NCBI GenBank assembly: GCA_916048095.2
Contig: OU696582.1
Location: 3,664,001 to 3,728,000, forward strand
DNA: 64,000 nucleotides
Direction: 5' to 3'
Source of the DNA: Sacculina carcini
Taxonomy: Eukaryota; Arthropoda; Thecostraca; Sacculinidae
Shown one piece after another: positions 8,508 to 63,986 of the stretch (its first letter is position 1; each line of letters starts with the position of its first letter). The translations under genes and the position numbers were made by a program. Below the pieces are notes generated by a model, which was not told the DNA's origin, did not search any database, and saw only the letters and a program-made list of their open reading frames with translations.

Positions 8508-8512
8508 CCTAG

Positions 8513-8838
8513 TGTTACGTAGTCGACAAAATATAAACTGGGCAAAGCCCTCTCACCTTCGCGCAGGTAACCCGCGCACACGACGAGAATTCGTCCACTC
8601 GAGCAGAAATATTCTCGAAACACGGCAACGATGCTTATAACGCACAGGCCACCAACCGAATGACGCTCGACCGCTCGCAAAGCCAGCTTCACACACGCCA
8701 GCTGATACACGCCTCCGGCACTAGGCTCAAGTCGCGGCCAATCAGCGCGCAGTAACGTGCGATGTCATACCTCGCACCACTCGGCTCAAGTGAACCGCTA
8801 TGACGTCACACCGCACGCCACTCGACAACAACGCCACA
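8513..8838 (-). repeat. 3' LTR of E2
   Basis: On the minus strand TGTGGCGTTG...ACGTAACA; matches 13343-13668 with about six substitutions. The polypurine tract GGGGGAGA (8839-8846) abuts it on the internal side, which marks it as the 3' LTR. Confidence 0.9.
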
Positions 8839-8930: not shown

Positions 8931-9950
8931 TTAACCATGCCGGCGGTCGACGTCTCCTGGTTGACCGCCTCGGCTGCTCGACTCGGCAGCCTCATCCTCG
9001 ACTCTCTCAGCCGCGACGCCCTCTCTGACATTTTCTCGAGCAGTATGTACACTCACGTCCTCTGAGGGCTCACCAGGTTCCTGCTCCACAGACACACGGT
9101 CCGCATCCACGCCCTCGCCAATAGCCAGTCGCTCAGGTGGCATGCTGTCAGGTGTTCTGTCACCGCCGGGACTATCGGCCGCCTCGTCCCGTCCGCCATC
9201 GCCGCTCGGGTCCAAGCTACACCGGGTGGCTCCACCGGGTGGCTCCACATCTCCGCGATTGCCGGTCGCATCCACATCCCAACCGCCGCTGGTCGGTTCC
9301 ACGTCGCCATGAGTGCCGGTCTCGTCTATGGCTCCACTATGGCCGACACAGCGACGCATGCGCAGGTCGCGCACATTGCGCGGCATGCCATCTACGCACA
9401 CAACGTGCTGTGAGACGACCCTGGTCACCTTCCCGAGGGTCCACGGCGTTGTACATGACGAGATCGGCGGTTTCACCCACACCTCGTCACCAACGGCAAA
9501 CGCTGCTGTCTGGTCATCAGCATCCCTGCGGCCGGTCTCAAATGGAAGACGCCACTCGTATCTGAAAATACACCTCGAGGGAATAGTGCTCACCTGAGTC
9601 TCTTTGCGCGGCGTAACGTTGTACCAGAACGTCGCCTCCTCCGGGGAAATATGACCCCTCGCTGCGATCCTTTTGATCGTACGGTGATTTCGCTCCACGA
9701 TCCCGTTACCGCCCGGGGCGTATGCGGCTCGGAATCGCAAAGAAATGCACCACTCGTCGGCGAACTGCTCCATCGCCGCCAACCGGAACGCCGTCGAGTT
9801 GTCCAGTAACAGCTCCTCAAACGGCCCACGCTCAATCACAATCTGCCGCAGCTGAGCTATAATTCACAACGCCGTCTCATTCGGCAATCTGCGCCATACG
9901 GCAAGACGTGATGGACCACAATCCACCATCGACAGGTAAACGCCGGCATC
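8931..9950 (-). pseudogene. E2 integrase core and C-terminal tail
   Basis: Continues pol after a stop at 9951. The first catalytic Asp is in the DVTH just before that stop. The second Asp is in LLLDNSTAF, and the Glu in GNGIVERNHRTIKRI. Then come a WYNVTPRKETQ motif, a DEVWVKPP segment and a VDGMPRNVRDLR segment, and a long acidic, Pro/Gly-rich tail. The enzyme would insert the cDNA. A TAA after DVTH and a TGA about 100 bp later break it. A close relative of the same region is fused to a LINE RT at 54993-55580. Confidence 0.8.
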
Positions 9951-12452
9951 TTAATGAGTGACGTCCGCTGCCACTCGATACCAGTCCCTCTCCACGGCCA
10001 GACTACCCTGACCTACGAGGTTCTCCTCTCTCACCGCTGGATCAGTACGTTGACAAGCCTCGCATCCAGCTAACTCCGCCTTCACATGGGCTCTCGTCAA
10101 ATCACTCCGCAATTGTTGACCCAGGTACAACGTCCTCTCGACACCTAAATGATGGGGCAGATGAGCCGCCCAAACGGTGTCCTTGATGCTCTTCTTCGTA
10201 GCAATAGCTGCTGATATTGCCACCTCCTCCTCACCAGCGTCACGATGAACAAGCCACTTATTGGCCACCCTGGTCATCTGATCAGCTTTATTCTTAACAG
10301 TCGTGACGAACCGGAGAGAAACTGTCAGGCCATGCTCGGCGATCGTCTCCTTAATCACCGCCAGTCGGCGCTTCACCAGCATCTCGGCAGAACCTTTAGT
10401 GCGGACACGGTTGCGCCCCTCGACAGTGCTGTCCATCCAACTAAGCACTGTGCTCGAGTCTGTCGCGACGGTAAACGTCTTGAACCCCCACGAAATCGCC
10501 ATATTGATGCCACGACCGACTGCCTCCAGTTCGGACACATTGATGTGTAGGACGTCGGTCTTCTTACGGAGCCAAGTATCATCCTCAACGATGCAGCCGT
10601 CCACCTCGACCACCACGCCAAGCGCCAGCGTGCTCGCGTCAGTCCATACAGTGACGTTTCCAGCTGCGTTCACGTCCCATCGACCCTTTACCGGGTCCGC
10701 CTTCTGAACACGCTGCAACAGCTCAGACACAAGCACACACACAACATTCTCCACCGGGTTATCCCACGACCCGCCACACCCCAACCGTTTCAAAAAACTG
10801 CAATGGGAAAGTAACCACCCGGCAACGGGGTAATGGCCGACTAAGCGACCACATACGGAGAACAACCCACGCTTGGTCTGCCCTGTCAATTCGGGTGCAG
10901 CGTCACGAAGAGCTGTCCCTCTCGACATATTCAACCACCCATCGGGTCCCTTCCTCAGAGCAATTCCCAATAATCGAGCCCCATCTAGGCCCTCCGGCTC
11001 CTTAGTCTCAAAGCCATACCTTTGCAGATGCTCCCGAAGCTGATGCACGCTCACATCGGACGTCCTCACGATGATATCGTCGACATAATGATCTGTCGCC
11101 TTTCGCACCTTCTCGTCCAATGACAGGACCTTTCGCAGAATCAGCGTCATTATGCTTGGTACACATGACAGGCCGAAGCCCAGCCGCGTCAACGCATAAT
11201 GCACACCATTATACCTCACGACCTGATACTTCCACAGATCTCGGCTCACGTGAATCTGCAGGTACGCCGACTTGAGATCAACTACCTTGATCTCCCCCTG
11301 CCATTGCCTCCACTCTCTGATCTCAGCACACACTGGCACACCGTCATCTCCTGTGTGACACTCGACAAAGCCGTTCAGCTCACGGTAATCCATAACAGGA
11401 CGAACTTTGTCTTTCGTCGGCTGTACGACGGCCAACAGCGGGATGATCCCCTTTACTGGGCCGTGCCATGGGATCAACCAGCCTTTCTCGACCCAGCTCC
11501 GGATCTCGGCATTGTACCTCTCGCTCACTCCAGGAGCTCTCGTACATCTGTACTCCGCCACGCTGTTCTGTAGCTGGTCCGGCTCTTTGTCAGACCACCG
11601 CCAGCTCACCGTCCATCGGCCCTCAACGAATGCCGCTACGAAGTCCTTGTCGACAAATTCCAGCGGCTGCGGACTATCCGTGGAACCTGCCAACATAAAC
11701 CTCACACACTTCGTCGATTTATTAGACACACACTTACGCGCCGGTGCACGACAGCACCCCTCGGGGTAAGGTTTCCCCCACTCAACGGTGTATATAGAGT
11801 CAACACCCCTCTTCACTGTCACGCCTCCCATATGGTCGATAACATCGTTGCCCAGGAGGCACTCCACCCCAAGGTTTTCTAATCCCTTAACTACGAGCCC
11901 GGAAACTCTAAAACAGTGTCCCTGCAGCCCTATTACTACGTCACAGGATTTCGTCTCATGAGAAGTCCTTCCATCCGCTGTAATCAACGGTCGTCCCCGA
12001 CGGGGAAGTGAACCCGCCACCACCCGTGCACTGACAATTGTGCACTCACTTCCCGTGTCAACCAGACACCGGGAGCAACGACCGTTGAGAACAGCTTCAA
12101 CGACCGGCATACGACGCGAAGTCAATACACCGGCCGTCCCTCGAATTGCCCGGCGGGCCCGACGCACCAAATGTGCTCCGCTGATGAGTCCACGCGCAGA
12201 GCAGGGACTCACCGTCGCCCCTTTACAGGGCCGCCGCTTAATTGCGGTCAACTTCCATGTCGGAGGACGCTGCGCCCCGTGCTGCGCCCCGTGCTGCGCC
12301 CTCCCCATGAAAATACGAGCTCGTCCGAGATCGCGAGCGGCGTGACGTCGACGTCGACGCCGGCTCCTCGCAATCATGAGCGAAATGCCCGTGCTTGCCA
12401 CACCGGTAGCATTGCGCTCCCGGGCACTCGCGGACCAGACGGTCGCCGCCAC
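9951..12452 (-). pseudogene. E2 pol: protease, RT, RNase H, integrase finger
   Basis: A long open frame with no ATG at its upstream end, so it is probably made by frameshifting from gag. In order: Arg-rich linker; protease with CLVDTGSECTIVS (intact Asp-Thr-Gly) and LLGNDVIDHMGG; RT with RPVMDYRELN, DLKSAYLQIHV, LTRLGFGLS and the catalytic YVDD in HYVDDIIV; connection GLFSVCGRLVGHYPVAGW; RNase H with VWTDAS, ELEAVG and ATDSSTV; integrase H2C2 finger (HHLGVERTL, CEACQ). It ends at the first integrase Asp where a TAA interrupts. All RT and RNase H catalytic residues I can place are present. Confidence 0.85.
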
Positions 12453-13330: not shown

Positions 13331-13342
13331 GCCGAAATAGCT
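13331..13342 (-). other. Primer-binding site of E2: complement of tRNA-Phe nucleotides 1-12
   Basis: AGCTATTTCGGC on the minus strand, directly abutting the 5' LTR. It is the exact reverse complement of GCCGAAATAGCT, the first 12 bases of eukaryotic tRNA-Phe, and does not match any tRNA 3' end with CCA that I know. The next base disagrees with tRNA-Phe, so pairing would stop at the LTR edge. Confidence 0.75.
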
Positions 13343-13668
13343 TGTTACGTAGCCGACAAAATATAAACGGGGCAAAGCCCTCTCACCTTCGCGCAGGTAA
13401 CCCGCGCACACGACGAGAATTCGTCCACTCGAGCAGAAATATTCTCGAAACACGGCAATGATGCTTATAACGCACAGGCCACCAACTGAATGACGCTCGA
13501 CCGCTCGCAAAGCCAGCTTCACACACGCCAGCTGATACACGCCTCCGGCACTAGGCTCAAGTCGCGGCCAATCAGCGCGCAGTAACCTGCGACGTCATAC
13601 CTCGCACCACTCGGCTCAAGTGAACCGCTATGACGTCACACCGCACGCCACTCGACAACAACGCCACA
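13343..13668 (-). repeat. 5' LTR of E2
   Basis: 326 bp, TG...CA, partner of 8513-8838. The primer site abuts its internal end and the CCTAG duplication its outer end. A TATAA-like GTTATAAG lies mid-LTR in the element's orientation. Confidence 0.9.
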
Positions 13669-13673
13669 CCTAG

Positions 13674-18163: not shown

Positions 18164-18175
18164 GCCGAAATAGCT
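18164..18175 (-). other. Primer-binding site of E3: complement of tRNA-Phe nucleotides 1-12
   Basis: The same 12 bases as in E2, E4 and E5, directly abutting the LTR start TGTGACAG at 18176. Confidence 0.7.
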
Positions 18176-30069: not shown

Positions 30070-31439
30070 TTTAAATATAAGGTCTTGCCGTTACAAAGCT
30101 CACTATTTATCCCATCTCTGTTCATCACATAATATTGATATCCTTTGCCTAACAGAAACTTGGCTTTTTGATACCGACATCTCTTCTTTTGTTGCTCATA
30201 TACCTAGTAGTTTTGGTTTTCTGCACATGTCTCGTTCAAGCCTTATCTGCTCCCGTGGCGGTGGTGTTGGTTGTATCTATGCAAAATCACTGTCCCTTTC
30301 GCTAATTCCTGATCTTAAATCTGCCTATTCTTCTTTTGAATTCATTGCCCTTGCATTGTCCGTACCTTCTCGTCCTAAGCTCTGCATAATTGTTGTCTAT
30401 CGACATAATCACCCAGGAACTACGTCTGCATTCTTTGATGAATTCTCTGATCTTCATGAATCTGTGACGAAATTATTCTCAAATAGATATCTAATCGTTG
30501 GTGACTTCAACTTCCCTTCCTCTAATGTATACTTCTCTCAGTTTTGTTCCTTCGTTGACTCTCATGCGCTTTGCTCTCCGATATCTTCCCCCACTCATTT
30601 GTCGGGTCATATTCTTGACCTGCTTCTTTTTCCTGTGCCAACTATCTCCACTGACTTAGCTGTACCGAAAGTTGAAGTTTTCCCTCCCGATCGCTCATTT
30701 TCGGATCATAGCTTATGCCTATTTGACATTCCGTTACCTTCTAAATCATCTAGTATGTTTCCTCATTCATTCAGATCGTATAGAAACTTTGATCCTGGTG
30801 TATTCATATCATTTCTTACATCTCGGCTACCTTCTCATGTGTTTTATTCACTACCAGCTGACGAAGTATATTCTTGTTTTTCCATGGTTCTTTCTGATAT
30901 TAATGATACCCTTTTTCCTTTGAAAACTTGTTCCCGCACATACATGCCCATTCCATGGTTTAATGCTGAACTTCTCTCTTTGAAACGCTTTCAACGCCGG
31001 TCTGAACGTTTGTGGCGTCGCTCAAGATCTGAGTCGAATTGGTCCGCCTACTGCTCGTCTCGTGCAGCTTATCTGGCCGCTCTCTCTGATGCTAAGTGCT
31101 CTTTCTACAAATCTAAACTGACCTCACTTTCGGTCTCACAGAAACTGCTCTGGTCGACTCTAAACACTATCTCTGGCCGTCGTTCCACATCTACAACATG
31201 TTCAACCACTGCTTCTGAATTCGCAACGTTCTTCTGGAACAAAGTGAAAACTACAGATGAAAGCATTCCAGCTACACATCACAAAATCACACACTCTACT
31301 TCATCAACTACTCTCTCTTCCTTTACTCATGTCGTCCTCTCTGATATCCTAGCCTTACTTTCATCAATAAAAATATCTGCCTCTCCCGCCGATCCTATTA
31401 ATTTTAAGGCCTTCTCTCACTCGATTACTCTATTCGCTC
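30070..31439 (+). pseudogene. L3 ORF2, first part: AP endonuclease and linker
   Basis: APE motifs in order: NIRSCRYK, DILCLTETWL (catalytic Glu), GGGVGCIY, VYRHNHPGTT, LIVGDFNFPSS and FSDHSLCLF (His of the SDH box). A linker follows up to the E5 insertion at 31440. The frame is open from about 30070. Removing E5 plus one CGCTC copy joins it in frame to the RT at 43708, so ORF2 was intact here when E5 arrived. Confidence 0.85.
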
Positions 31440-31757
31440 TGTGATATATTGATGAGACTGATGGAGCAAGTATGACAAGACACTACAACACTGTTCAAAG
31501 TTATCACTACACACGAACCACGCGCCAACACAACTCACCACCGCACCACCAATTTCACACTGAAGCACAACTCGCCATGAACACAACAGCGCGCACGCAT
31601 ACAGACATCGCCAATCGCTCACACACACACGCACACACACACACACACACATACATACAAACATACATGCATGCCTACGCAGCAAGCACGACCACTCGCA
31701 CGAACACTCGCACGCACAGATACAAGTAAGCACACATACATGCATACATATATAACA
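31440..31757 (-). repeat. 3' LTR of E5
   Basis: Starts TGTGATAT and ends ATAACA on the plus strand. The internal side carries CCGCCCCTAG (a polypurine tract on the minus strand). Contains an AC microsatellite at about 31618-31650. Confidence 0.9.
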
Positions 31758-31855: not shown

Positions 31856-33195
31856 CTACTCTCTGAAACGCACAGGAACAGCAATCTTTGACCTGTCACG
31901 CAATCTGTGCTGCCAACCAGTATCATTCTGAACAGCGTCGCTATCACCCGACACTTCACTTCTTTCCGCTGTCTCAGCTCTCTCCAGGTTGTCGATCTCC
32001 GCCTCGAACGAATCTTCATCATCACTGTCGTCGTGTTTAACCGCCCTCCTGACGTGGCTGATATGTCGTGACACTCCGTCGCCGATATCCACCGCCCAGC
32101 TGTTTGGCACAGATGATACTTGATGGGGTCCTGACCAACGACTAGTGCACGAAGGCTTAGCTGGCTTCAGATATACTGAATCACCCACACAGTAAGGATT
32201 TATGTTCTCCTCCGGCATCGCTCCACTCCATTCCTGCTTCATGTTTGACTTCGCAGTCCTCCTCTGATTATTCACACCAGGCAGTTTTGGCACACATCCA
32301 AAGACGCTGACGAACGGCTTCTCACCAGTCACCGAACTAGTGGTGGCATTATACCAAAAGGTCATTTCTGCTACAGGGCGTCCAGACCGCTCAACCATTC
32401 TCTTAATTGTTCGATGTATGCGCTCGACAATGCCATTTCCTTGGTGGCGATACGCGCAGCACTGGCGAAGCTCGACTCCCCATGAGCGTAACAATTCACT
32501 CACAGTACGACTCATGAAAGTAGGACTATTATCGGATAATAGAATATGTGGTGGACCAAACTCCGAGAAAATGTTTTCGAGAGCAGCAGCAACAGAGCTA
32601 GATGATTCGCTGAACAATTTCTTCCAAATTGTGAATCGGGACGCATTATCTATCACAGACAAGTACGGGTGAGTTTTGACATATGTTATGTCCATCGAAA
32701 AACTCCGCCATACTTGCCCAGATGACAACCGACCTTTTGGAGCACGTTCTCGTAGAGCAGGATCGATTCTACTGCAGGCTTCACAGCTACTCAAAATGCG
32801 GTCCACAGTAGACTTCGGAACTGATTCTCCTTCTTCCCGCAATATTTCACACGTTCTTTCAACTCCCATGTGTCCAGTGACGTTGTGCAGTTCCACCACC
32901 CTATCGGCCACACCAACAAAACCAATCCCAACAGCACGTATCTCTTTCAGGATGTCCTCTGGTATTCTTGACATTTTATCCGCGATGTTATCTCGAGAAG
33001 AAACCAATTTGACAGTCACTTCCAGTTGATACATCTCAATCAATTCTCTCAAAACGTCAAGCCTACGCCGAACAAGCATTTCTGACATACCATGAGTGCG
33101 CAGACGATGTGTCTGCTGTACCACATTACTCAACCAGCCTCTTACGGTCGTCGAATCAGTAACTATCTCAATACGTGACAGCTTCCATTTGATAG
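31856..33195 (-). CDS. E5 pol, last part: RNase H end and integrase
   Basis: Uninterrupted frame from the E4 insertion to a stop at 31856. RNase H end with VTDSTTVRGW; integrase zinc finger HNVTGHMGVERT...CEACSRIDP (H2C2 intact); catalytic core SMDITYVKTHPYLSVIDNASRF (Asp), LLSDNSPTFMS (Asp) and GNGIVERIHRTIKRM (Glu); then WYNATTS, a SVYLKP segment and VDIGDGVSRHISHVRR, with an acidic C-terminus. All three catalytic acids are present. It joins in frame to 36509-36870 once E4 and one CCAAG are removed. Confidence 0.85.
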
Positions 33196-33200
33196 CCAAG

Positions 33201-33838
33201 TGTAGTAACAGTGTGCGTTGCGATGCCATCATTCGATTGCGATGATGTCACCCTTGTTGAATCACACATAGCTAGAATAGACGGAACTGCAATCGCACGC
33301 TGCAGGTTTGCAGAACAAGCGCGCTAGCCTGAGTGTGTATGTGTGCGCGTGTGTGCATGTGAGTCAGCGCGTATATGCGTGTCTGTGTGCGTGTGTATGC
33401 GCGTCTGTATGCGTGTTTGCGCGTCTGTGTGCGTGTGTATGGGTGTGTATGCTTGTGCGTGTGTATGTATGGTCACGTAATCATCATTGTTGCTAAGCAC
33501 TATTTGTGCACGCGAACGTATGTGTGTATATGAGTATGTGTATATGCGTGAGTGTGTATGTGTGCGTGTGTGTGGGAGTGATCGCGTCATCTTCACTGTT
33601 GCCATGCATCTATATGTGGCAATGCATCTGTTGTATATTGGTATGCGTGCATGTGTGTGTATGAATCTGCATGTGTCATCGCTGTTGTCACACACATGTT
33701 CTTCGAACAAAGCTTGCTATATAATGCGCTAACGGGGAGGAATCGGGGATTGTCTCTTGGTGCTCGCTGTATGGTGTAGTCTTGTAGGCGCGTGTGGGAC
33801 ATCGCTGTCCCGCACGCGCCTGTCTGTCTAGAAATACA
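33201..33838 (+). repeat. 5' LTR of E4
   Basis: TGTAGTAACAG...AAATACA, 638 bp. Contains long TG-rich tracts and a TATATAA box. Its last bases differ from the 3' LTR, which is 44 bp longer at that end. Confidence 0.85.
33718..33724 (+). promoter_or_regulatory. TATA box of the E4 5' LTR
   Basis: TATATAA followed by TGCGCTAACGGGGAGG; the block is conserved in the 3' LTR (36339-36345) and the E1 LTR near 4890, in the position expected for the element promoter. Confidence 0.5.
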
Positions 33839-33850
33839 AGCTATTTCGGC
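33839..33850 (+). other. Primer-binding site of E4: complement of tRNA-Phe nucleotides 1-12
   Basis: AGCTATTTCGGC directly after the LTR end ATACA and 3 bases before the gag ATG at 33854. Confidence 0.7.
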
Positions 33851-33853
33851 AAC

Positions 33854-34560
33854 ATGGAAGCGAGTACGAGATATGTCCCGATGTCGGAGGTGAGTGAGGG
33901 CAGTGGGGCTCCCTTCGACATTCGTCTGGTACCCGAGTTTAATGGGCGGAACGTGCCAGTAACGGAGTGGCTGGAGAAGGCCGAGATGGTCTGCAGACTG
34001 CGGGGAGTGAGTTGCCTGTAAGATATGCGGCCACTTCGTCTGTCGGACGGTGCGCACGGGCGCGCCGCTCGGCCTGCGACTGGCCGAGCCTGTGTGGCAG
34101 TTGCCGGCCGGCCGGCGGCTGACGCACGTCTACTTGACGGAACTGGACGGCGAGTGTGTTGCTGTCGTTCTGGCCGTCGGCCGGCAACATCACTCGGAGC
34201 AACTGCGTCTGCCCTACTCTATGTCATCGCTGGACGGCCGCACGGTCTGTGTCGACGAAGATGCGGCGGAAACGGCAGCGCCAGCGGTTTATTCGTGACA
34301 TCCGTCAATTGCGAGACGTTTGTCGGCCGCGCGCTGTTCTTTCGGCGCCACGAAATGGACGCGGCGGCGGCTGCCGTGCGTCGCGGTCTGGCGCGCGTGC
34401 TGCCCTTGCTTCTGCTGCGACGTACGTGAGTCGTGCGAGGTTCGTGAGTCGACTTCTCAATGTAGGAGAGTCTGTCGACGTATATCTGGCAGAGCTGCGC
34501 CGTCTGGCCTCGATATTCGGAGGAGCAGGGACAGCGCGCTGATATGCGCTTTCGTCGCCG
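33854..34560 (+). pseudogene. E4 gag remnant with a foreign-looking middle
   Basis: ATG at 33854 opens a gag N-terminus (FDIRLVPEFNG, VCRLRGVSC) ending in a stop near 34020. A gag-like piece returns at about 34340-34540 in another frame (SRLLNVGESVDVYLAELRRLASIFGG). The stretch between, about 34040-34300, has an open frame containing THVYLTELDGECVAVVLAVG that does not resemble gag of the relatives. No protease, RT or zinc knuckle follows. Confidence 0.6.
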
Positions 34561-35455
34561 GATTGCCGGTGGAGACGCGCCGGTGCGGCCGGCGAAGACG
34601 CACGGGTGCGGCCGGCAGAGAGCGCACCGATGCGGCCAGTGAGAACGCACAGGTGCGGCCGGCGAAGACGCACAGTTGCGGCCGGCGAAGACGCACAGGT
34701 GCGACTGGAGAAGACGCACAGGTGCGGCCGGCAGAGACGCCCGAGTGCAGCCGGTGGGAACGCACGAGTGCGGCCGGTGGGAACGCACAGGTGCGACTGG
34801 CGAAGACGTACGACCGGCGACAGGTGACGACAGGACGACAGACGTACTCCAGGTGCGGCCGGTGGAAACGTAGAGTGTGGCCGGTAGGAACGCACAAGTG
34901 CGGCCGGCGGGGACGCACGAGTTCAGCCGGCGATGACGCACAGGTGCGGCCGGTAGGGAACGCAGGAGTGCGGCCGGTAGGAACGCACAGGTGCGGCCGG
35001 CAGTGACGCACAGGTGCGGCCGGCAGTGACGCACAGGTGCGGCCGGTGGGAGCACAGGTGCAGCCGGTGGGAACGCAAGAATGCGGCCGGCGGGTTTGCA
35101 CGAGTGCGGCCGGCGAGACTCAGAGGTGCGGCCGGCGAGACGCATAGTTGCGGCCGGTGAGACTCACAGGTACGTGTGCGGCCGGCGAAGACGCAGAAGT
35201 GCAGCCGGTGGGAACGCAGAGGTGCGGCCGGTGGGAACGTAGTGTGCGGCCGGCAGTGACGCACAGGTGTGGCCGGTGGGAACGCACAGGTGCGGCCGGT
35301 GGAAACGTAGAGGTACGGCCGGTGCAAACGCAGAGGTGCGGCCGGCGGAAACGTACGGGTGCGGCCGGCAAAGACACACAGGTGTGGCCGGCAAAGACAC
35401 ACAGGTGCGGCCGGCAGAGAACGCACGGGTGCGGCCGGCGAAGACGCTGAGGTGC
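34560..35455. repeat. GC-rich 23-bp minisatellite inside E4
   Basis: About 38 copies of a 23-bp unit, GTGCGGCCGGCAGTGACGCACAG and variants (GAAGACGCAC, GGGAACGCAC). Because 23 is not a multiple of 3, each unit shifts the frame. The long Pro/His/Arg-rich open frames on either strand are therefore by-products of composition and not genes. Confidence 0.9.
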
Positions 35456-35810
35456 AGACGGTATGCCGCGACACGTACGGGACATCAGATTGGCGGCATC
35501 GGAGCGGTTCGAATACGTTGTTGGTGCGGACAACGTGAACAACGTCGGCAACGATGACCCACTCATTGTTCACATAGGCGATGAGGATGTTGCGAGAGAC
35601 AAGTCGACAAGAGTATGCTCGACCCGTCGGTTGAGCAACACGAAGATACTGAGACGCAAATTGATAGGCGCAGTAGCCGTCTGCGGCGAAAGAAAGCCTG
35701 TCTTTGCGAGCGAGAGTTGCAATCTAGTGTGTTGCGAATGTCTCTTGCTGGTGGCAATTTGGAATGCATGATGCTATTGCTCATGAATGTTAGCTTAATG
35801 ATCTTGATGA
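35456..35810 (+). pseudogene. E4 pol C-terminus remnant
   Basis: MPRHVRDIRLAASERFEYV and the acidic PLIVHIGDEDVARD piece match the pol C-terminus of E1 (6461-6823). The rest of pol is absent. The polypurine tract and 3' LTR follow at 35814-35822. Confidence 0.7.
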
Positions 35811-37019: not shown

Positions 37020-38231
37020 TTATATATAGCCTGTTGGAGGCTCAATACATTGAATTGAATTGAATCCATATTTGCCGATATGCTGACGAACTTCAGAAGC
37101 TTCTACAAGATCAGTTTTCACAATAATGTCATCAATATAGCAATCCACAGCACCATGCAATTTTTCACTGTTCGAGATCGAATATTTCAATATGTGGGTC
37201 ATCACCTTCGGACCAATACTTAGCCCGAAACCAAGACGAGTCATGACATAATATCTGTCGTGAAATTTCACAGCTTGGTATCGCCACAGTGATGGATCAA
37301 TATGAACTTGCAAATACGCCTTTTTGAGATCTAGCAATTTGACATTTTCACCCAGTCGTCTCCATTCTCTAAGCTTTTCGTCACAAACAGCGCTGTCTAA
37401 ACCTGGTGCACTTTTGATGTGCACGTTCAACTCGCGGTAGTCTAGTACTGGTCGTACCTTGTTTTTCTTCTCCTGACATACCGCCATCAGAGGTATCACA
37501 CTTTTTATTTCTCCATGTTTCACTGGATCGTGCTCTTGAAGTATGCCGTCAGTTATCCACGAGCACACTTCCGACTCAAACTCTTCACGATGTGCTTCTT
37601 TTACCCTGTAATTATTCTTCACACTCAAAAACTCCGGGGCACTGTCCTTCCATTTCCATTTAACAGTCCACCTGCCATCACGGAAATTAGCGACAAAGTC
37701 TTGCTCAGCAATATCATCACCGACTTCAGCTGCAGCAAACGCCATTTTTTCAGAGTTATCAAAGCTGACTGAACCATCTGCTGAAACCGTCACACCACCA
37801 ACAGCAGTTATCAAGTCCATTCCCATCACCATATCAACGTCGTTCGGAAGCTGACTGTTTTCACAGACCCAAGTACGCACATTCTTCACCATTCGGCCAG
37901 TGTTTACCTTCACCACTCTCCAGTTAACACAACCTCGGAGTGTGAGAGTCGACCCATCCATAATTTTCAATTGCAATCTGTCTTGTAGCAAAATCTGTTG
38001 TTTTTTTACTAATTTCATTTTAACTACGGAATGACTACTGCCGGTATCGACGAGAGCATTCACAATTGTACCGTCCATCCAAACAATGGTTACTGATTGC
38101 GGGGAAGAGCGGACGGCACTGTAGAAGTAGCCATTCCCCGCTCCTCGTTTCCCGGACACCAACGAGCAATGTGGCCGGGTTGACCACAAGCATAACACAC
38201 TAAACGATCGGTTGTACTTTTTGATCTGCAT
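37020..38231 (-). CDS. E5 pol, protease and RT
   Basis: Open frame in -1 relative to gag and without its own ATG. Protease ALVDTGSSHSVVKM (Asp-Thr-Gly) and MVMGMDLITAVGG. Linker AEQDFVANFRDGRWTVKWKW. RT RPVLDYRELNVHI, LLDLKKAYLQVHID, MTRLGFGLSIGPKVM and the catalytic YIDD (CYIDDIIVKT). All catalytic residues are present. It ends at a TAA after a short insertion at about 37020-37065, so downstream RNase H would need readthrough. Confidence 0.8.
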   Translation of the reverse strand: MQIKKYNRSFSVLCLWSTRPHCSLVSGKRGAGNGYFYSAVRSSPQSVTIVWMDGTIVNALVDTGSSHSVVKMKLVKKQQILLQDRLQLKIMDGSTLTLRGCVNWRVVKVNTGRMVKNVRTWVCENSQLPNDVDMVMGMDLITAVGGVTVSADGSVSFDNSEKMAFAAAEVGDDIAEQDFVANFRDGRWTVKWKWKDSAPEFLSVKNNYRVKEAHREEFESEVCSWITDGILQEHDPVKHGEIKSVIPLMAVCQEKKNKVRPVLDYRELNVHIKSAPGLDSAVCDEKLREWRRLGENVKLLDLKKAYLQVHIDPSLWRYQAVKFHDRYYVMTRLGFGLSIGPKVMTHILKYSISNSEKLHGAVDCYIDDIIVKTDLVEASEVRQHIGKYGFNSIQCIEPPTGYI

Positions 38232-38794
38232 TGCCGAGCAATATGGCCTGATTTACCACAATTAAAACATTTGATTGTAGCAGCAAAGCCGCGGCCATAC
38301 GGTTTGGAAATCAGTCCTGCCTGCACCTGCTTGGCACAGTTTAACACATCTACCAAACTCAGTTCCGCCCCATGTAGTGCTCTGACTGGATCCTGAATCT
38401 CTTGGGGAAGCCCTTGAAGAAATTGACAGGTCACCCATGCTTCGTTGTCACTGTCAGTGACGCCACAGGCCAGCGACTGAAGGTCAGCTACAAAATCATC
38501 CAATGTTTCGTCACTTTGCAGTCGTCGATTGACGAATTTTGAGTACGCTGCGCACGGAGGAAGCCCAAACGCCTGTCTCAATGAGGCAATAATACATCCA
38601 GCTTTTTGCTTGTCAGCTTCTGGCAGCTGCTGAAAATTTCTAAATGCTTTACCCTCCAAAAAGAGTGGCATTATTGTCGAAATATCATCCACACCTTTCA
38701 ATTTAGCTGCCATTTTCAGCTTATCCAGCCATACGTCCAACTCACCGGAGCCGTCATATTTTGAAACCAAGTCAGTCAATTTCAAAGCTTCCAT
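38090..38794 (-). CDS. E5 gag
   Basis: Starts at the ATG 38794-38792 that lies inside the CATGC duplication of G1; 234 codons. Capsid part MEALKLTDLVSKYDG, LPLFLEGKAF-like and RQAFGLPPCAAYSKFVNRRLQSDETLDDFVADLQSLA; then two perfect CCHC knuckles, CFNCGKSGHIARQC and CYACGQPGHIARWC. It ends shortly after a GGGAAAC slippery site and overlaps pol by about 140 bp. G1 separates it from its LTR and primer site. Confidence 0.85.
   Translation of the reverse strand: MEALKLTDLVSKYDGSGELDVWLDKLKMAAKLKGVDDISTIMPLFLEGKAFRNFQQLPEADKQKAGCIIASLRQAFGLPPCAAYSKFVNRRLQSDETLDDFVADLQSLACGVTDSDNEAWVTCQFLQGLPQEIQDPVRALHGAELSLVDVLNCAKQVQAGLISKPYGRGFAATIKCFNCGKSGHIARQCRSKSTTDRLVCYACGQPGHIARWCPGNEERGMATSTVPSALPRNQ
38147..38153 (-). 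promoter_or_regulatory. Putative -1 frameshift site of E5 (GGGAAAC)
   Basis: GGGAAAC read as G GGA AAC in the gag frame, directly after the second zinc knuckle. The pol frame overlapping here is -1, so slippage at this heptamer would give Gag-Pol. Confidence 0.65.
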
Positions 38795-38796
38795 GC

Positions 38797-39064
38797 TGTT
38801 CAAGTCTGAGACTGTATTAACAAGATAACCATAACACACAAACAACACTGTACACAAAATGAAAGTAGCGACTCGCAAGAGCAACACACACGAAACACGC
38901 GGGCTTCAAAACTTCACTGCCGTTCACTTAAACGGCTCAGTAGGATCAGCAGACGACCCACTCTCGATGCCCGACTGCTAGCGCTAAGCAGACGACCCAC
39001 TCTCGATGCCCGACTGCTAGCGACATCTGTTGAGGTGATTTTCTTCACGCTGCGCACTCCCACA
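38797..39064 (-). repeat. 3' LTR of G1
   Basis: TGTGGGAGTG...CTTGAACA on the minus strand. Contains two tandem copies of a ~36-bp unit (GCAGACGACCCACTCTCGAT...). The gag-pol stop lies inside it at 39017. Confidence 0.95.
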
Positions 39065-42000
39065 CGCCCCCCTAGTCATTTTCATGACTTCGATGAGCCT
39101 TTGGGGACGACGACGAGAGCGAGTTGATCTCCATGGCTCCTCGCTCCTCTGTGCTGCGTCTCCTTCGGATGATGCACTTGTTGGCTGGACGTCTGGCCTC
39201 AGAGCGTGGCCGAATCTCAGGCGAATGTGTCGTCGGTTACGAGCTACCACTCGTCCGCTGAGCATCTTGACAAGGTATCGACGATGCGGCAATTTCTCGA
39301 CGATCACTCCATACCTGGTCCATTCCTTGGTCGCGTGACACTGGACAGCGACGTTGTTTCCCGGGCTTAGCTCGGTTAAGTCTCTGGTGCCCTGGTTGTA
39401 CCTCTCCTCGGATTTGCACTCGTAAGTGTCCATCACGCGCTCCGCTTCTTCGCTGGACTTCTGCCACTCTGAGCTGAACTGTCGTCTGTGTGCAGGCACC
39501 ATGTCTCTCACCGGACGACCGTAGAGAATCTCTGCCGGCGATCTGCTGTCTGGTCCAGGCGTGTTCCTCTGCTGAAGTATGCCTTTGGCCCAGCTGTCAG
39601 CGTCAAGGCCTCCTCTCCCCCCATCCCAGCACTTTTTAATCAGCGCTTTGGCCGATTTGACGGCGGCCTCGGCTCTTCCGTTCGATTGCGGGTAATGGGG
39701 TGATGAGCGCACGTGTTGGAAACGCCATAGCTCCGCAAATCGAGCGAATTCTCCCGATGTGAACTGCGGTCCTCCGTCGGAGTAGATTATCACAGGCACG
39801 CCCACCATGCAGAAGATGGTACGGAAAGTATCAAGTAGACGTCTTGTGACCGCCGATGATCCCAGGTCGTTGACGAATTGCCACCCTGAGAGATGGTCCA
39901 CCAGCACGATGAACTTGTGTCCTCCGTGTTCAGCAATGTCGACGGAGACGTATTCGAACGGTCGAGTAGCCTTTGCATGACGCGTCATGGTTTCTGGAGC
40001 CTGTGATGGTAGGTATTGTTGGCATTTACCACAATGTTTGGTGATGTTGTCGATGTCGACATCAATACCGGGCCAATAAACGGCCTGCCGAGCTCGCTGC
40101 TTGGTTTTTTCTTTGCCCGCATGACTCGCGTGCAGGTCACGCAATATTTGTGACCTCATGGACTTTGGGATGACCAGCCGGCGACCAAGGAACACCAGAT
40201 CGTCTTCCACCGACAGTCGTTCGTGTACAGGCCAGTAGCGTTGAAGCTTGTTGTTCATATCGCCTTTGCGATCCGGAAATCCGTCCATGATGGTTTGCTG
40301 GAGCATCTGTAGCTCAAGGTCAGCTGCAGATTCCGCCTTCAGCTGCTGTAGATTGAGGTCGGGGATCTCTGGATCCGTAGTGACACACGCAGCGATGGTC
40401 GTGCCGTCATCGGCCTCTTCTTTCTCCGTTGCGGGCGAAACGGGATGCCGCGAAAGCGCGTCAGCGGCAGTGTGCTGCTTCCCCGGGACCCATCGAGCGG
40501 AGAATGGTCCAATCTCTTCCAGCTTAAACCGCAAACGCTGTAGTCGCGGATTAGCCAGGTCATCGAGCGATTTTGAGTTGAGGATTGGTACTAATGGCCG
40601 GTGATCTGTCAAAACCTCGAAGTGTTCAAGACCGGAAAGAAACGGGCGACATTTTTTGAATGCCCACACTATGGCCAGCAGCTCCAATTCGATCGCGGCA
40701 TAACGGCTTTCTGCGTCGTTCAGAAAGCGCGATCCACATTGCACGACGCCCATTTCGCCATTCGGCTGTTTTTGTTGAAGCATGAAACCAAGCCCGTTCA
40801 GACGACTAGCATCTGTATGCAGGTATGTCGGAGCTTTAGCGTCGAAATATTTCAGCACATCTTGTGATGACAAAGCTTTTCGTGCTTCATGAAATGCTGC
40901 AGTATGCCGGTCTTCCCACAAAAACGTGTTTTTCGTGCTCAACAATCCACGAAGAGGAACCAACCATTTTGACAGATCCGGCGAAAATGAACCGATTTGG
41001 TTGCACAGACCAAAGAATGAGCGCAGATTCGTCAAGTTTGTCGGAACCGGAAATTTCGAGATAGCCTCGTTCAGAGCAGTGTCGATAGAATACCCGCTTG
41101 CGCTGACTTCGAATCCTGCGAATTTACACCGTGGCAGCATATACTGAACTTTGTTGCGATTCAAAGTTATTTTCCGCTGACGGCATCTGACCAAGAAATT
41201 GGTGGCACGTTCTTGAAGCTCCTCTTTTGAGCTGCCATAAATGATGACGTCATCTACTAGTCTTTGGACTCCTGTCAGTCCCTCAAGAGCCTCGTTCATC
41301 CGACGATTGTAGTGGTCAGATATCGACGAGATGCCGTACGGCGCACGGCGGAACATGTATCGACCAAACGGAGTGATGAAGGTGGTCAACGGTTGGCTTT
41401 CCTGACTGAGCGGGCACTGATGATAGCCTTTAGCTGCGTCAAACACTGCAAAATATTTTGCTTCAGCCGTTACCATAGATGCTACACACTCCGCTGGTGT
41501 GCTGGACTGAAACAATTCTCTCTGAATGCATCGGTTCAGTTTGGTGAGATCGACACACAGACGAATTTTCCCACCTTTCTTCGGCGTCACCACGATCGGG
41601 GAACACCATTCCGTCGGTTCTGTTACACGTGTGATGATACCTTGTGACTCCAGTGAGTGCAGTTCCTCTTTCAAGGCATCACGTAGCGGGAGTGGCACCC
41701 GACGCGGCGCTGTGACGCTGTGAGGTCTGCTACCATCGGCGACTCTGATCTTGAACGATTCACCCGGCAAGCATTTAATCTCTTCACTGAAGACGTCGCG
41801 AAATTCGCTGATGACATCTTCAGCTGACGATATACGCTTTCGATCGTTGGCCTCTGCGACGATGTTCACCGCGGACGGGTTCAGTTGATTCGGATAGTCC
41901 CTCGAAATGATGCCCAATTCTCGACACACGTTCCACGACAGAAGCATTCCGGATACTCCTTTGAGTACATGCACGTCCACTTCGACTGACAACTCGCCGA

Positions 42001-43096
42001 GGGAAACGGTCGTTGGACATATACCGACTGGACACATTCTGGTGCCATCGGCTGAATACGGTCGATCCGTGCTGGGCAGCAGGTTGTTGATGTGCTCAAA
42101 TTTTTCCAGCACATCCACCCCAGCCACTGTAATGTCGGCTCCTGTGTCCGGCAACGCAGACACCGTCACATGTCCATCGACGACAACATCCACACGGGGA
42201 GCTCGGACTGCCATGACGCTTGAAACAATCGCCGCTGACACATACCTGTTTTTCCACTGTTTGTTGGCAACGGTTATGTTCTCGGCGCGATCTCTGTCAT
42301 CGAGGGATGTCTTGCATTTCGTGGCAAAATGACCTAATTTGCCGCATCTTCTGCACTCCTGGTCATGTGCTGCGCACTTGCCTTTGCGCGCGTGGTGTCT
42401 TCCGCACCGGGGACACTCTGGTTCAGAACTCGAAGGTGCTCGGCTGGCATGCTTACTGAAGCCATTGCGAACACCGTGCACTCTGCCGACTCTATCGGTC
42501 TCTATTTTCTCCGTATCGCGACTGGCGGCTTCTTCTGCTCTACAAATATCGATAGCCGTCGGAAGGTCCAAGCTTTTCACGCTACACAGCTTCTTAATGG
42601 TGGCTGTGTCTCGCATGCCCACCACGATGCGATCGCGGACGAGACTATCTTGACATTTGTCACAAAAATTACACGACATGCCCAATTCGCGCAGGCTGAT
42701 GAGAAAATCGTCAAAGCACTCGCCATTTCTTTGCACACGTGAGTTGAAGTTTTTGCGCTCGATCACCTCGTTTACTTGCCCTTTGGCATAAACATCCAAG
42801 TGTCGCAAGATGACGTCCACATTGTTCTTGTCTGTTTCGGCGATATCGAGGCTTTTTACAATTCTCAGACTTTCGTCGCTGATGCACGACCGAAATACTG
42901 CCATCTGAACTTCCCGACTCTGACTTTTCAGACCGGAAAGTAGCACGTAGTCGGTCCAGCGCTCTCGCCACAACGTGAACGCTTCGCTTCGGTCAATAGA
43001 TAGATCCAGTTTTGCTGGCACAGAAATTTTCCCGCTCCATGAAAATGAAGAATCACTCATTGAATGAGTATCACTGGATCCTGTCGGCTGCGCCAT
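39017..43096 (-). CDS. G1 Gag-Pol polyprotein
   Basis: The ATG at 43096-43094 overlaps the last LTR base and the primer site; 1,359 codons, no interruption. Gag of a Mag-type (FTLWRERWTDYVLLSGL; DFLISLRELGMSCNFC), knuckle region CPRCGRHHARKGKC and CRRCGKLGHFATKC. Protease ALPDTGADITVAG. RT VDLTKLNRCIQRE, FDAAKGYHQCPL, and a catalytic box LVDD in QRLVDDVIIYG. RNase H YLHTDASRLNGLG, ELELLAIVWA and LTDHRPL. Integrase HASHAGKEKTKQRA...CGKCQQY, core SVDIAEHGGHKFIV (Asp), IYSDGGPQFTSGEF (Asp) and NGRAEAAVKSAK (Glu). An upstream in-frame ATG in the LTR would add 30 hydrophobic residues but is less likely, as it lies in U5. No frameshift is needed in this element. Confidence 0.95.
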   Translation of the reverse strand: MAQPTGSSDTHSMSDSSFSWSGKISVPAKLDLSIDRSEAFTLWRERWTDYVLLSGLKSQSREVQMAVFRSCISDESLRIVKSLDIAETDKNNVDVILRHLDVYAKGQVNEVIERKNFNSRVQRNGECFDDFLISLRELGMSCNFCDKCQDSLVRDRIVVGMRDTATIKKLCSVKSLDLPTAIDICRAEEAASRDTEKIETDRVGRVHGVRNGFSKHASRAPSSSEPECPRCGRHHARKGKCAAHDQECRRCGKLGHFATKCKTSLDDRDRAENITVANKQWKNRYVSAAIVSSVMAVRAPRVDVVVDGHVTVSALPDTGADITVAGVDVLEKFEHINNLLPSTDRPYSADGTRMCPVGICPTTVSLGELSVEVDVHVLKGVSGMLLSWNVCRELGIISRDYPNQLNPSAVNIVAEANDRKRISSAEDVISEFRDVFSEEIKCLPGESFKIRVADGSRPHSVTAPRRVPLPLRDALKEELHSLESQGIITRVTEPTEWCSPIVVTPKKGGKIRLCVDLTKLNRCIQRELFQSSTPAECVASMVTAEAKYFAVFDAAKGYHQCPLSQESQPLTTFITPFGRYMFRRAPYGISSISDHYNRRMNEALEGLTGVQRLVDDVIIYGSSKEELQERATNFLVRCRQRKITLNRNKVQYMLPRCKFAGFEVSASGYSIDTALNEAISKFPVPTNLTNLRSFFGLCNQIGSFSPDLSKWLVPLRGLLSTKNTFLWEDRHTAAFHEARKALSSQDVLKYFDAKAPTYLHTDASRLNGLGFMLQQKQPNGEMGVVQCGSRFLNDAESRYAAIELELLAIVWAFKKCRPFLSGLEHFEVLTDHRPLVPILNSKSLDDLANPRLQRLRFKLEEIGPFSARWVPGKQHTAADALSRHPVSPATEKEEADDGTTIAACVTTDPEIPDLNLQQLKAESAADLELQMLQQTIMDGFPDRKGDMNNKLQRYWPVHERLSVEDDLVFLGRRLVIPKSMRSQILRDLHASHAGKEKTKQRARQAVYWPGIDVDIDNITKHCGKCQQYLPSQAPETMTRHAKATRPFEYVSVDIAEHGGHKFIVLVDHLSGWQFVNDLGSSAVTRRLLDTFRTIFCMVGVPVIIYSDGGPQFTSGEFARFAELWRFQHVRSSPHYPQSNGRAEAAVKSAKALIKKCWDGGRGGLDADSWAKGILQQRNTPGPDSRSPAEILYGRPVRDMVPAHRRQFSSEWQKSSEEAERVMDTYECKSEERYNQGTRDLTELSPGNNVAVQCHATKEWTRYGVIVEKLPHRRYLVKMLSGRVVARNRRHIRLRFGHALRPDVQPTSASSEGDAAQRSEEPWRSTRSRRRPQRLIEVMKMTRGACGSAQREENHLNRCR
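43077..43095 (-). other. Primer-binding site of G1 (tRNA-Ser type)
   Basis: TGGCGCAGCCGACAGGATC directly after the LTR; agrees with the complement of the 3' end of metazoan tRNA-Ser (UGA/AGA type, known sequence) at about 17 of 19 positions. The gag ATG overlaps its first two bases. Confidence 0.7.
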
Positions 43097-43363
43097 GTTC
43101 AAGTCTGAGACTGTATTAACAAGATAACCATAACACACAAACAACACTGTACACAAAATGAAAGTAGCGACTCGCAAGAGCAACACACACGAAACACGCG
43201 GGCTTCAAAACTTCACTGCCGTTCACTTAAACGGCTCAGTAGGATCAGCAGACGACCCACTCTCGATGCCCGACTGCTAGCGCTAAGCAGACGACCCACT
43301 CTCGATGCCCGACTGCTAGCGACATCTGTTGAGGTGATTTTCTTCACGCTGCGCACTCCCACA
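43096..43363 (-). repeat. 5' LTR of G1
   Basis: 268 bp, identical to 38797-39064. Flanked by CATGC on the outside and the primer site inside. Confidence 0.95.
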
Positions 43364-43366
43364 CAT

Positions 43367-43378
43367 GCCGAAATAGCT
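43367..43378 (-). other. Primer-binding site of E5: complement of tRNA-Phe nucleotides 1-12
   Basis: AGCTATTTCGGC between the E5 LTR (43379) and the original gag ATG (43366-43364), which follows with no spacer. G1 inserted at that ATG. Confidence 0.75.
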
Positions 43379-43565
43379 TGTGATATATTGATGAGACTGA
43401 TGGAGCAAGTATGACAAGACACTACAACACTGTTCAAAGTTATCACTACACACGAACCACGCGCCAACACAACTCACCACCGCACCACCAATTTCACACT
43501 GAAGCACAACTCGCCATGAACACAACAGCGCGCACGCATACAGACATCGCCAATCGCTCACACAC

Positions 43566-43596
<31 letters not shown>

Positions 43597-43702
43597 TACA
43601 TACAAACATACATGCATGCCTACGCAGCAAGCACGACCACTCGCACGAACACTCGCACGCACAGATACAAGTAAGCACACATACATGCATACATATATAA
43701 CA
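43379..43702 (-). repeat. 5' LTR of E5
   Basis: 324 bp; differs from 31440-31757 only by three extra AC repeat units. Primer site at the internal edge and CGCTC at the outer edge. Confidence 0.9.
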
Positions 43703-43707
43703 CGCTC

Positions 43708-52479: not shown

Positions 52480-53400
52480 TCGTGAAGCCCTCAGGGCCCC
52501 CGCTCTAAACGTTGCAACGTTTAATACGAGGACTTTGAGGGAAAATTGTCGTCTTAATGAATTATATAAATTAGCTATATATTTGAACATTGATATCATC
52601 GCCGTCCAGGAGCACAGACGAACTGTGAAGGCACCAGCCACGTCCGTCAACGTTCACGGCTGGACTTTCTGGATTGCAACTGCAACCTCTCAAGGCCAAG
52701 GTGGTGTTGGCTTATTGTTGTCTCCGCGTGCCAGGCGAGCTCTCCTCAGCATCGAATATCCACACGCGCGAGTCACAACAGCAACATTCCAGCTGAAGGC
52801 CAACAGATTGCGCATTGCAAATTGTTATATGCCCACCGCATGTGCAGCCTCACTGGACGAAGCAGAAGAGTGCATTAATGTGCTGACTACGTTTGTGGCC
52901 GGCGGTGCAAATCGCGATGTCACCTGTGTTGTCGGTGACTTCAACGCCGACCTACAGACTGGAGTCAACAAGCATGCCTTTCCGCAGTCAAAATCAACGC
53001 ACACCGACGCAGTGAGTGATTTCGTGGCTAGCAACGACTTGATCGCTGCAAATGGAGTCATGCGGCAACGGCAAAGCCATATTCCGACATTATTCGGACC
53101 CAATTGCCGCAGGGCTCGACTGGACTATGTGTTCGTTCAGCGCCAGTGGTGTCGCATACTGCGTAGAGTCTCCCGAATTCGTCCTCGCTGCATTCCATCG
53201 GATCACGCCATGCTCCTGTGCTCACTGAGTCTGCGCCTGTGGATGGGCGTCAAACACAGACAACAGCGTCAAATCCAGTCGTCGACACTGAGAAAACCGG
53301 CAGCACGCAGGAGGTTTATCGGCGCTGTAATCAATCAGCAAAGACAGGGCGACGGAAGCTACACCAGCATCGCTTCAGTCGGTCCTATATGCGGCCGAAG
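52480..53400 (+). pseudogene. RTE-like LINE: AP endonuclease
   Basis: APE motifs in order: NVATFNTRTL (Asn), IIAVQEHRR (Glu), GGVGLLLS, IANCYMPT, CVVGDFNADL (Asp, Asn), LDYVFV and IPSDHAMLLCSLSL (Ser-Asp-His). The frame runs to 53530 but leaves homology near 53400, where the RT frame begins; one frameshift separates the two. The 5' start is unclear, and in-frame sequence extends upstream to 52367. Confidence 0.75.
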
Positions 53401-63800: not shown

Positions 63801-63986
63801 GCTGTCCCGGTTTGCCATTGACGGGGTGAATGGGAGCCGGTGAGGGCGACCGGGTGGCATGGTGCGCACGGGGCAGCCACATGTGGCGGTGGCACCTGCG
63901 TGCGGGTGGCCCAATGGTGCCGATGTCGCCGCTACGGTGGACCCTATCTTGGGAAAGTCCTCTCCGACGATGCCCAGGCTGACCAT
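60852..63986 (-). CDS. G2 Pol polyprotein (Ty3/Gypsy), runs toward the right edge
   Basis: 1,044 codons in one open frame. RT: RTIDLQPLNRHS, KTVTDAWNGYHSIEI, RRAPMGFMASQDAY and a catalytic box CIDD in KCIDDVIMWDE. RNase H: RTCLNPDWSQTGVGYWL, PIEGEALAVAWALE and VTTDHKPLVKILSD. Integrase: HAAHQGCSRMYSRAQ...CCDCWRTSP finger, core ATAADFFTTKGVGYLVIV (Asp), LSTDGGPEFTAGE (Asp), NGRAEVAVKSMKRLL (Glu), and a basic/Pro-rich C-terminus. Conserved acids are present, the Tyr of YxDD is Cys. The first ATG at 63986 sits near the window end; protease and gag should lie beyond it. Confidence 0.85.
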   Translation of the reverse strand: MVSLGIVGEDFPKIGSTVAATSAPLGHPHAGATATCGCPVRTMPPGRPHRLPFTPSMANRDSMKAWLVDRYSSSTLNTCPHQPLPAMSGPPMAIRVNDNTTPTVTRRPPNVPVHWQDEVAEQLDRDVALGVIERVPPNTPVTWLHNMVVTAKHDGSPRRTIDLQPLNRHSTRETHHTVPPAKQARSIPPGVFKTVTDAWNGYHSIEIRSEDRHKTTFLTEQGRYRYRRAPMGFMASQDAYTERYDAIIADVARKSKCIDDVIMWDEDLEGHWWRVIDYMERVGRAGVILNPAKLQFSNTEVDFAGFRISSSGVKPLPKYLDAIASFPRPANITDVRAWFGLVNQVSHYGRTTNMMAPFKPLLSPKTRFQWGPELERAFQRSKAVIVDAIAEGVEIFDPHRRTCLNPDWSQTGVGYWLRQKHCDCHSKVPGCCPDGWRVTLAGSRFLRPAEARYAPIEGEALAVAWALEDSRFFTLGCRDLVVTTDHKPLVKILSDRALDEIANPRLFRLKQRTLMWRYRIIHVPGKDIPAADATSRNPASCQEDTGDTRLPSDLSAFRVHTTACDIDAPMVASAKRAAGKLGAITWDRVKNATASDGAMTKLTSYIRCGFPASRDDVPEELQPYWQHRNELYTVDDVPMLGGRIVVPPSLRNEVLRVLHAAHQGCSRMYSRAQHTVFWPGLTKDIESTRHRCCDCWRTSPSQPRMLPATPTVPSRPFEATAADFFTTKGVGYLVIVDRLSGWPHIVASASGSRGFKRALVNYFATFGVPQELSTDGGPEFTAGETTDLLKRWGVRHRLSSAYHAVSNGRAEVAVKSMKRLLMALDDTDGGVSSESVAAGLLQYRNTPDPTTGVSPAQIVFGRSIHDLLPVAPNTQIFSCDKVHPVWRDTWERQEDALRLRFAKQTEKLQAHSRPLSPLEPGARVLVQNQAGPHAKRWDRSGVVVDARPNDQYLVKIDGSGRVTLRNRQYLRHVEGLTGTVLPPAVPQTMSHTPPIRDSAASVPPSLPSATGPPPAPDRAPQARPPLDRETRDDTTPADSGATQQ

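Follow-up and report, generated by a model that had tools for sequence, protein, structure and literature searches.

Which RNA primes reverse transcription in a group of LTR retrotransposons that lack the usual primer site? LTR elements normally use the tail (3') end of a tRNA, and their LTRs usually end in CA. In the window, by which we mean the whole 64-kb stretch of DNA analysed here, four elements (E2, E3, E4, and E5) carry one and the same 12-nt word, AGCTATTTCGGC, directly against this LTR end. In this genome, which is probably that of an animal, the site occurs in many LTR retrotransposons and matches the front (5') end of tRNA-Phe, a hint that reverse transcription is primed in a manner not yet described. 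Here, we describe the elements and the distribution of the word, and then weigh what it may be for and which RNA may pair with it.

Elements carrying the 12-nt word in the window

The word is present in four exact copies in the window, compared with 0.00 expected from 100 dinucleotide shuffles. When up to two mismatches were allowed, nine matches were found (the four exact copies and five with two mismatches), compared with 3.94 expected in all. The original prediction had placed a copy directly against the 5' LTR in each of the four elements, and the copies were confirmed at every position (Table 1). In element orientation, sequence ending in CA immediately precedes the 12-mer at 4/4 window sites.

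E2 and E5 have the features of LTR retrotransposons, namely TG..CA LTRs, 5-bp target duplications, and a G-rich tract, of which GGGGGAGA is the purine tract ahead of the E2 3' LTR. Their domains follow the Ty3/gypsy order: protease, RT, and then rve in E5, and protease, RT, RNase H-like, and integrase-like in E2, with the last two of E2 recognized from motifs. The E2 RT contains the motifs DLKSAYLQ and YVDD. The stretch TDAS/ELEA/TDSS/ADQMTR is taken to be RNase H-like because of these motifs; NCBIfam matches it very weakly (E 0.088). Pfam yielded no integrase in the E2 integrase-like ORF, and RNase H was not seen in E5. Neither the integrase ORF of E5 nor the scanned E2 ORFs yielded a chromodomain, in frames that are broken. 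E3 has no second LTR inside the window, and no target duplication was seen at the LTR edges of E4.

Several further observations concern these elements and their relatives. Inside E4, 23-bp units rich in GCGGCCGG are repeated in tandem over ~0.9 kb (about 34560-35500). One ORF at 53400-55580 combines a LINE-type RT with a piece 96% identical to the E2 integrase-like region (193 aa), resembling a fusion of a LINE with an E2 relative. In viral_contigs, no relatives of E2 pol were found; there was one exact match of TTACAAGCTATTTCGGC.

The window also holds two elements of another kind, E6 and E7. Their pol sequences share 33.8% identity over 917 aa, and neither gives a BLAST match to E2 or E5. 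E6 is nested in E5, and comparison with locus L048 recovers uninterrupted E5 sequence at the E6 insertion point. E6 has an ordinary primer site of the TGG type and so provides a contrast within the same stretch of DNA.

Table 1. Positions of the LTR retrotransposons, their primer sites, and their coding regions in the 64-kb window.
Feature	Position	Strand	Basis and remarks
E2 primer site, 12 nt	13331..13342	-	exact match; adjoins 5' LTR ..ACA
E2 5' LTR, TGTGG...ACA	13343..13668	-	repeat search; edges read by eye
E2 3' LTR, ends ..ACA, then CTAGG directly, without the 12-mer	8513..8838	-	repeat search; edges read by eye
E2 target duplication, 5 bp, CTAGG	13669-13673 and 8508-8512		
E2 pol ORF: aspartic protease, RT, DUF7047, RNase H-like stretch	9951..12452	-	protease and RT below Pfam's cut-off
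E2 integrase-like stretch (about 9230-9810)	8931..9839	-	by eye; stop between stretch and pol ORF
E3 primer site, 12 nt	18164..18175	-	exact match; presumed LTR from 18176 upward
E4 primer site, 12 nt	33839..33850	+	exact match
E4 5' LTR	33201..33838	+	repeat search; edges read by eye
E4 3' LTR	35822 to about 36473	+	last bases differ from 5' LTR
E5 primer site, 12 nt	43367..43378	-	exact match
E5 5' LTR	43379..43702	-	repeat search; edges read by eye
E5 3' LTR, ends ..CACA, then GAGCG directly, without the 12-mer	31440..31757	-	repeat search; edges read by eye
E5 target duplication, 5 bp, GAGCG	43703-43707 and 31435-31439		
E5 protease and RT piece	37020..38231	-	RT below Pfam's cut-off
E5 integrase (rve)	31856..33232	-	frame extends slightly into E4
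E6, Ty3/gypsy of another clade, nested in E5	38797..43363	-	repeat, Pfam, and BLAST comparison
E6 target duplication, GCATG	43364-43368 and 38792-38796		overlaps last 2 bases of E5 primer site
E6 primer site TGGCGCAGCCGACAGG, ordinary TGG type	43080..43095	-	complementary without mismatch to the last 16 nt of tRNA-Ser(CGA) from this genome, after we appended CCA
E7	60852-63986		LTRs not found in window

Abundance of the word and diversity of the LTRs

To place these four sites in the genome, we searched the 264.4-Mb assembly (43 contigs, both strands) and found 2021 exact copies of AGCTATTTCGGC, compared with 5 of the reversed control word. CA directly precedes the word in 1913 copies (0 for the control of the longer word). 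The other 108 of the 2021 copies lack this CA, a point against the explanation favoured below. A chance origin of the 12-mer is ruled out by the window shuffles together with both genome-wide controls. For closer analysis, an unselected sample of 34 copies was used, comprising the four window copies and the first 30 listed genome copies, those 30 all on one contig. CA stands directly before the word in 33/34 of them; the exception, L001, has the LTR edge ..ACT and keeps the 12-mer, which likewise counts against that explanation.

When the 250 nt immediately upstream of the word were compared by blastn (single linkage, E <= 1e-8 over at least 50 nt), the LTRs next to these 34 words formed 12 groups without detectable similarity to one another, the largest of which has 16 copies. 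This supports the original claim, made for the window, that the LTRs are unrelated at this edge. On the LTR side, it is the terminal CA of the LTR that sets the boundary of the word. On the other side, information is already <= 0.30 bits at the base that follows the word and stays so beyond it (33 groups), so the conserved word ends there. This value comes from a flanking-base table of the 34 copies plus 44 more (41 with a non-A base before the word, two in L042, and one more in L093), which is biased for the base before the word and unbiased downstream. The conserved stretch stops where nt 1 of tRNA-Phe would lie.

Are these separate lineages that share a word, or one clade? The pol sequences of E2 and E5 are 35.5% identical over 383 aa. 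We checked pol at 15 further copies, using 3-kb loci for L001-L010 (for L001-L005 also 3.5 kb downstream) and downstream sequence for L043, L051, L056, L061, and L062. The pol of 10/15 copies clearly belongs to the E2/E5 clade, and none of the 15 clearly has another pol of its own. Five of the ten (L004, L043, L051, L056, and L061) have long E2/E5 matches, with best scores of 215-506 bits compared with <= 51 bits for E6/E7. In the remaining five, E2/E5 gave the sole matches, with 80-89 bits for L003, L007, L008, and L010 and 287 bits for L009, which is of E2's own family. L001 scored 57.8 bits with E2-type and 52.0 bits with E6-type pol, and its downstream piece L103 scored 48.9 and 50.4 bits, respectively. 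L062 has an E6-type pol on the strand opposite its 12-mer, so this is not its own pol. L002, L005, and L006 gave no pol match in the part read. Because the pol sequences are related and 10 of the 15 further copies join E2/E5, the 12-mer elements are not independent inventions. Among copies whose pol could be placed, the 12-mer goes with one divergent Ty3-like clade, within which LTR sequence has apparently diverged while the 12-mer has not.

The word as the probable start of the minus strand

A minus-strand primer site sets the end of the integrated DNA at its own edge. In E2 and E5, the 3' LTRs run straight into the target duplication, so the right end of the integrated DNA is set at the word edge. 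Because these 3' LTRs end in CA at the duplication without the 12-mer, cDNA starts at or within the 12-mer; integrase may remove two or three bases at the DNA end. The word thus lies where the original prediction expected the minus strand to begin, directly after LTR ..CA and not starting with TGG. The 12/12 match to one tRNA speaks for pairing along the full word. Altogether, the identification of the 12-mer as the minus-strand primer binding site is well supported.

The 12-mer could instead be kept for another job, such as packaging, dimerisation, or translation, with priming by other means. In favour of this, the word includes the self-complementary AGCT, and an ATG lies within a few bases after the word in several groups. 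However, the word-to-ATG spacing varies between groups, and the integrated DNA of E2 and E5 ends at the word edge, as it does with a primer site. We consider such another job quite improbable.

Three of the loci have rearranged primer sites: L089, L093, and L100 show, respectively, a 9-nt partial repeat, two sites 19 nt apart, and the palindrome GCCGAAATAGCTATTTCGGC at the LTR edge. These are possible footprints of faulty priming or strand transfer.

Self-priming and priming by a tRNA 3' end

If the word is a primer site, the primer may come from the element itself. In cis self-priming of the Tf1/sushi type, the 5' end of the element's own RNA would pair with the site and be cut. The 12-mer is in the length class of the Tf1 primer (11 nt), it follows LTR ..CA, it has no TGG, and E2 has an RNase H-like stretch, all of which would fit. 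However, no LTR partner for the word above chance was found. The original prediction had argued against Tf1-like self-priming from LTRs without a matching word, and the larger sample bears it out: at 34/34 sites, the 700 nt upstream hold no Watson-Crick complement above chance (best runs 4-7 nt; shuffle means 5.1-6.4). With G-U pairs, runs of 6-11 nt are no excess over shuffles, whose mean is 8.7 and of which 7.6% reach 11. A single site of the 34, L051, has an 11-nt run when G-U pairs are allowed. Moreover, the 12 LTR groups have no detectable similarity near the edge. Cis self-priming was thus rejected for want of a complement above shuffles by either kind of pairing at these 34 sites, and we regard it as very unlikely.

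The primer could also be an ordinary tRNA 3' (CCA) end, if we have misread the site or if it lies further downstream. The window offers an example of such priming in E6, with tRNA-Ser, and TGG is found within 20 nt after the word in 22/34 copies, often inside ATGG at an apparent gag start. But the word at the LTR edge neither starts with nor contains TGG (for every copy, this follows from how the word was chosen), and the sequence after it is not conserved between groups. When the TGGs within 40 nt were compared with the 3' ends of 29 tRNAs read from the genome, an incomplete set, matches reached at most 8 nt, and this in 2/34 copies (L043 and L062, at bases 36 and 20 past the LTR, respectively), compared with 15/15 for E6 in the same test. 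The RNA-family search behind this set scored 63 of 15013 candidates. A check that the original prediction had called for, namely for a tRNA whose CCA-bearing 3' end matches the site, likewise found none among these 29 sequences of the incomplete set. As no match went beyond 8 nt among the 29 3' ends of this incomplete set, we reject an ordinary tRNA primer that pairs at the edge or shortly after it and give it scarcely any credence.

Other parts of tRNAs were searched as well. The 12-mer shares no run of at least 8 nt with 29 predicted tRNA sequences, some of which differ by an extra end base and which form an incomplete set. No match of the half-tRNA type, i.e. 5' of a cut in the anticodon region, was found in this set; the word instead fits nt 1-12 of tRNA-Phe.

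tRNA-Phe as the candidate primer

The complement of the word, GCCGAAATAGCT, exactly equals nt 1-12 of the common metazoan tRNA-Phe, and the tRNAs read from this genome look metazoan when judged against human tRNAs. By our estimate, the chance that the word would match the 5' end of any of ~45 tRNAs is about 45/4^12.

We looked for the corresponding gene in the assembly. No tRNA-Phe gene was read with patterns designed on its 5' half, on the stretch from anticodon to T arm, or on its 3' arm, where one pattern would miss a tRNA without G52 and another assumes TTTCGGC. Blastn for tRNA-Phe yielded two tRNA-Phe-like 3' halves alone, both from nt 38 (L041 1501-1535 and L042 1501-1530). The 3' half in L041 is 94% identical over nt 38-72, and its acceptor strand, TTTCGGC, pairs with GCCGAAA; this strand supports the assignment for nt 1-7. 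The 3' half in L042 lies ~220 nt before a 12-mer copy, apparently beside the start of its LTR. The 3'-half pattern gave 27 matches: seven tRNA-Met, three tRNA-Lys, one tRNA-Arg gene (L011), one 3' half, and 15 other tRNA-like stretches. ARAGORN, with an unvalidated intron option, called 0/15 of these stretches; they were judged by eye, and none is tRNA-Phe. Four tRNA-like sequences (L133, L139, L144, and L146) are dispersed and share 3' flanks, and are probably a tRNA-derived SINE. The tRNA-Phe gene may be missing from the assembly or interrupted. The assignment to tRNA-Phe made in the original prediction is therefore upheld as an exact match to the metazoan sequence, whereas, with no tRNA-Phe gene readable here, we infer the identity of the primer.

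A gene for the primer could also lie among the copies of the word themselves. All 46 copies in which the complement is not followed by T were read by eye, and none is a recognisable RNA gene; the other 1975, in which T follows, were sampled. A tRNA-Phe intron after nt 12 that would release a 12-nt exon thus found no support in the 46 copies, with the T-followed copies sampled.

These results also bear on whether the primer is a different host small RNA ending in 3' GCCGAAAUAGCU, such as a processed small RNA, a piece of a spliced leader, or a 5' tRNA fragment made by a nuclease. The match to tRNA-Phe would then be a coincidence or would merely name the source of the fragment. Any RNA acting in trans with this 3' end would account just as well for the edge, for the conservation, and for the missing cis partner, and the searches of the assembly yielded no tRNA-Phe gene. 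On the other hand, an exact match to tRNA nt 1-12, with the word ending at the tRNA end, is improbable by chance as estimated above, and the 46 copies read by eye (1975 others sampled) include no recognisable RNA gene. We regard another small RNA as unlikely.

Proposed mechanism

The explanation that we favour, and hold to be rather likely, is that the 12-mer is the primer site of one Ty3-like clade and that its primer acts in trans, being most likely nt 1-12 of tRNA-Phe, cut after nt 12, probably by the element RNase H. Within this explanation, we infer the tRNA-Phe donor, the cut, and its agent. A specific version is put forward more tentatively: a host tRNA-Phe that is still whole opens at the 5' end, pairs through nt 1-12, and is then cleaved by the RNase H of the element.

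In the favoured explanation, element RNA would melt the acceptor and D stems, either in tRNA-Phe or in a 5' half of it, and pair with nt 1-12. A cut after nt 12 would then give a 3' OH, for which the most economical cutter would be the element's own RNase H acting on an RNA-RNA duplex, as in Tf1; the RT and RNase H-like motifs kept by E2 would fit this. Minus-strand synthesis would begin at the last U5 base (..CA). During plus-strand synthesis, the 12-nt primer would be copied as far as its 5' terminus and the site thereby restored, which would explain why the word is exactly 12 nt long.

We compared the predicted energies of these pairings. The 12-bp duplex is worth -18.7 kcal/mol and can pay for the loss of both stems, acceptor and D, of tRNA-Phe, which costs about 14.7 (-21.9 to -7.2). 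Random 12-mers have a mean of -19.0, so the value is an average one; the duplex energy permits the pairing and proves nothing. We know of no citable product that is a tRNA-Phe piece with a 3' OH at nt 12. The main alternative to a cut by the element RNase H is that a nuclease of the host has already produced the fragment.

Comparison with known priming systems

Ordinary tRNA 3'-end priming, as in Ty3/gypsy elements and the Mag lineage, resembles the system proposed here in that the primer binding site adjoins U5. E6 is an example that uses tRNA-Ser, which is also reported as primer for Mag-like elements (PMC3286476). The 12-mer elements differ in that they have no TGG at the edge and pair with the other end of a tRNA. 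A 2019 survey of plant LTR elements distinguishes three primer types: a whole tRNA 3' end, a half-tRNA, and a self-primer (PMC6317226). A site pairing with a tRNA 5' end fits none of these three. In the texts retrieved from the open-licence PMC literature, where wordings free of a prime sign were searchable, no tRNA 5'-end primer was found described, whether we looked for the 12-mer, for priming by tRNA-Phe, or for unusual primer sites.

Half-tRNA priming, as in copia, Ty5, and Osser, is similar in that a tRNA piece rather than the CCA end serves as primer. In Ty5, this piece is one other than the CCA end. In copia, the primer is likewise a tRNA piece that is not the CCA end (PMC5371799). The half-tRNA sites of the plant survey fit tRNA-Met or tRNA-Ile with a cut in the anticodon stem and are confined to Ty1/copia elements (PMC6317226). 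Here, in contrast, Ty3-like elements would pair with nt 1-12.

A third group shares with the 12-mer elements that its priming is unexplained. Dictyostelium Skipper has no TGG and no self-primer in the LTR (PMC5006619). For SM-Tcn1, neither a tRNA nor a self-primer was found (PMC2864245), and Cryptococcus Tcn2-5 are said to have possibly novel priming (PMC7175516). The polypyrimidine of Skipper and the T-rich stretch of SM-Tcn1 at this site differ from the 12-mer. Tcn2-5 may hold a precedent for tRNA 5'-end priming. If our explanation is true, it could account for some elements filed under "no PBS found", and tRNA 5' 12-mers adjoining LTR ends would be the rule by which to search other genomes.

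The Tf1/sushi system shares with the 12-mer elements a primer of 11-12 nt from the very 5' end of an RNA, a site directly after LTR ..CA, and release by RNase H (PMC7175516 and PMC10085805). In Tf1, the first 11 bases of the RNA pair with the primer binding site, and RNase H cuts between bases 11 and 12 (PMC7175516). The difference is that the donor here would be a host tRNA acting in trans, as no LTR partner above chance was found. If our explanation is true, primer release measured by RNase H can act on host RNA. The more tentative version with a whole tRNA-Phe, on which an entire clade in this genome would depend, would add a fourth primer class for LTR retrotransposons and link self-priming with tRNA priming, with a tRNA taking the place that the 5' end of the element's own RNA has in Tf1.
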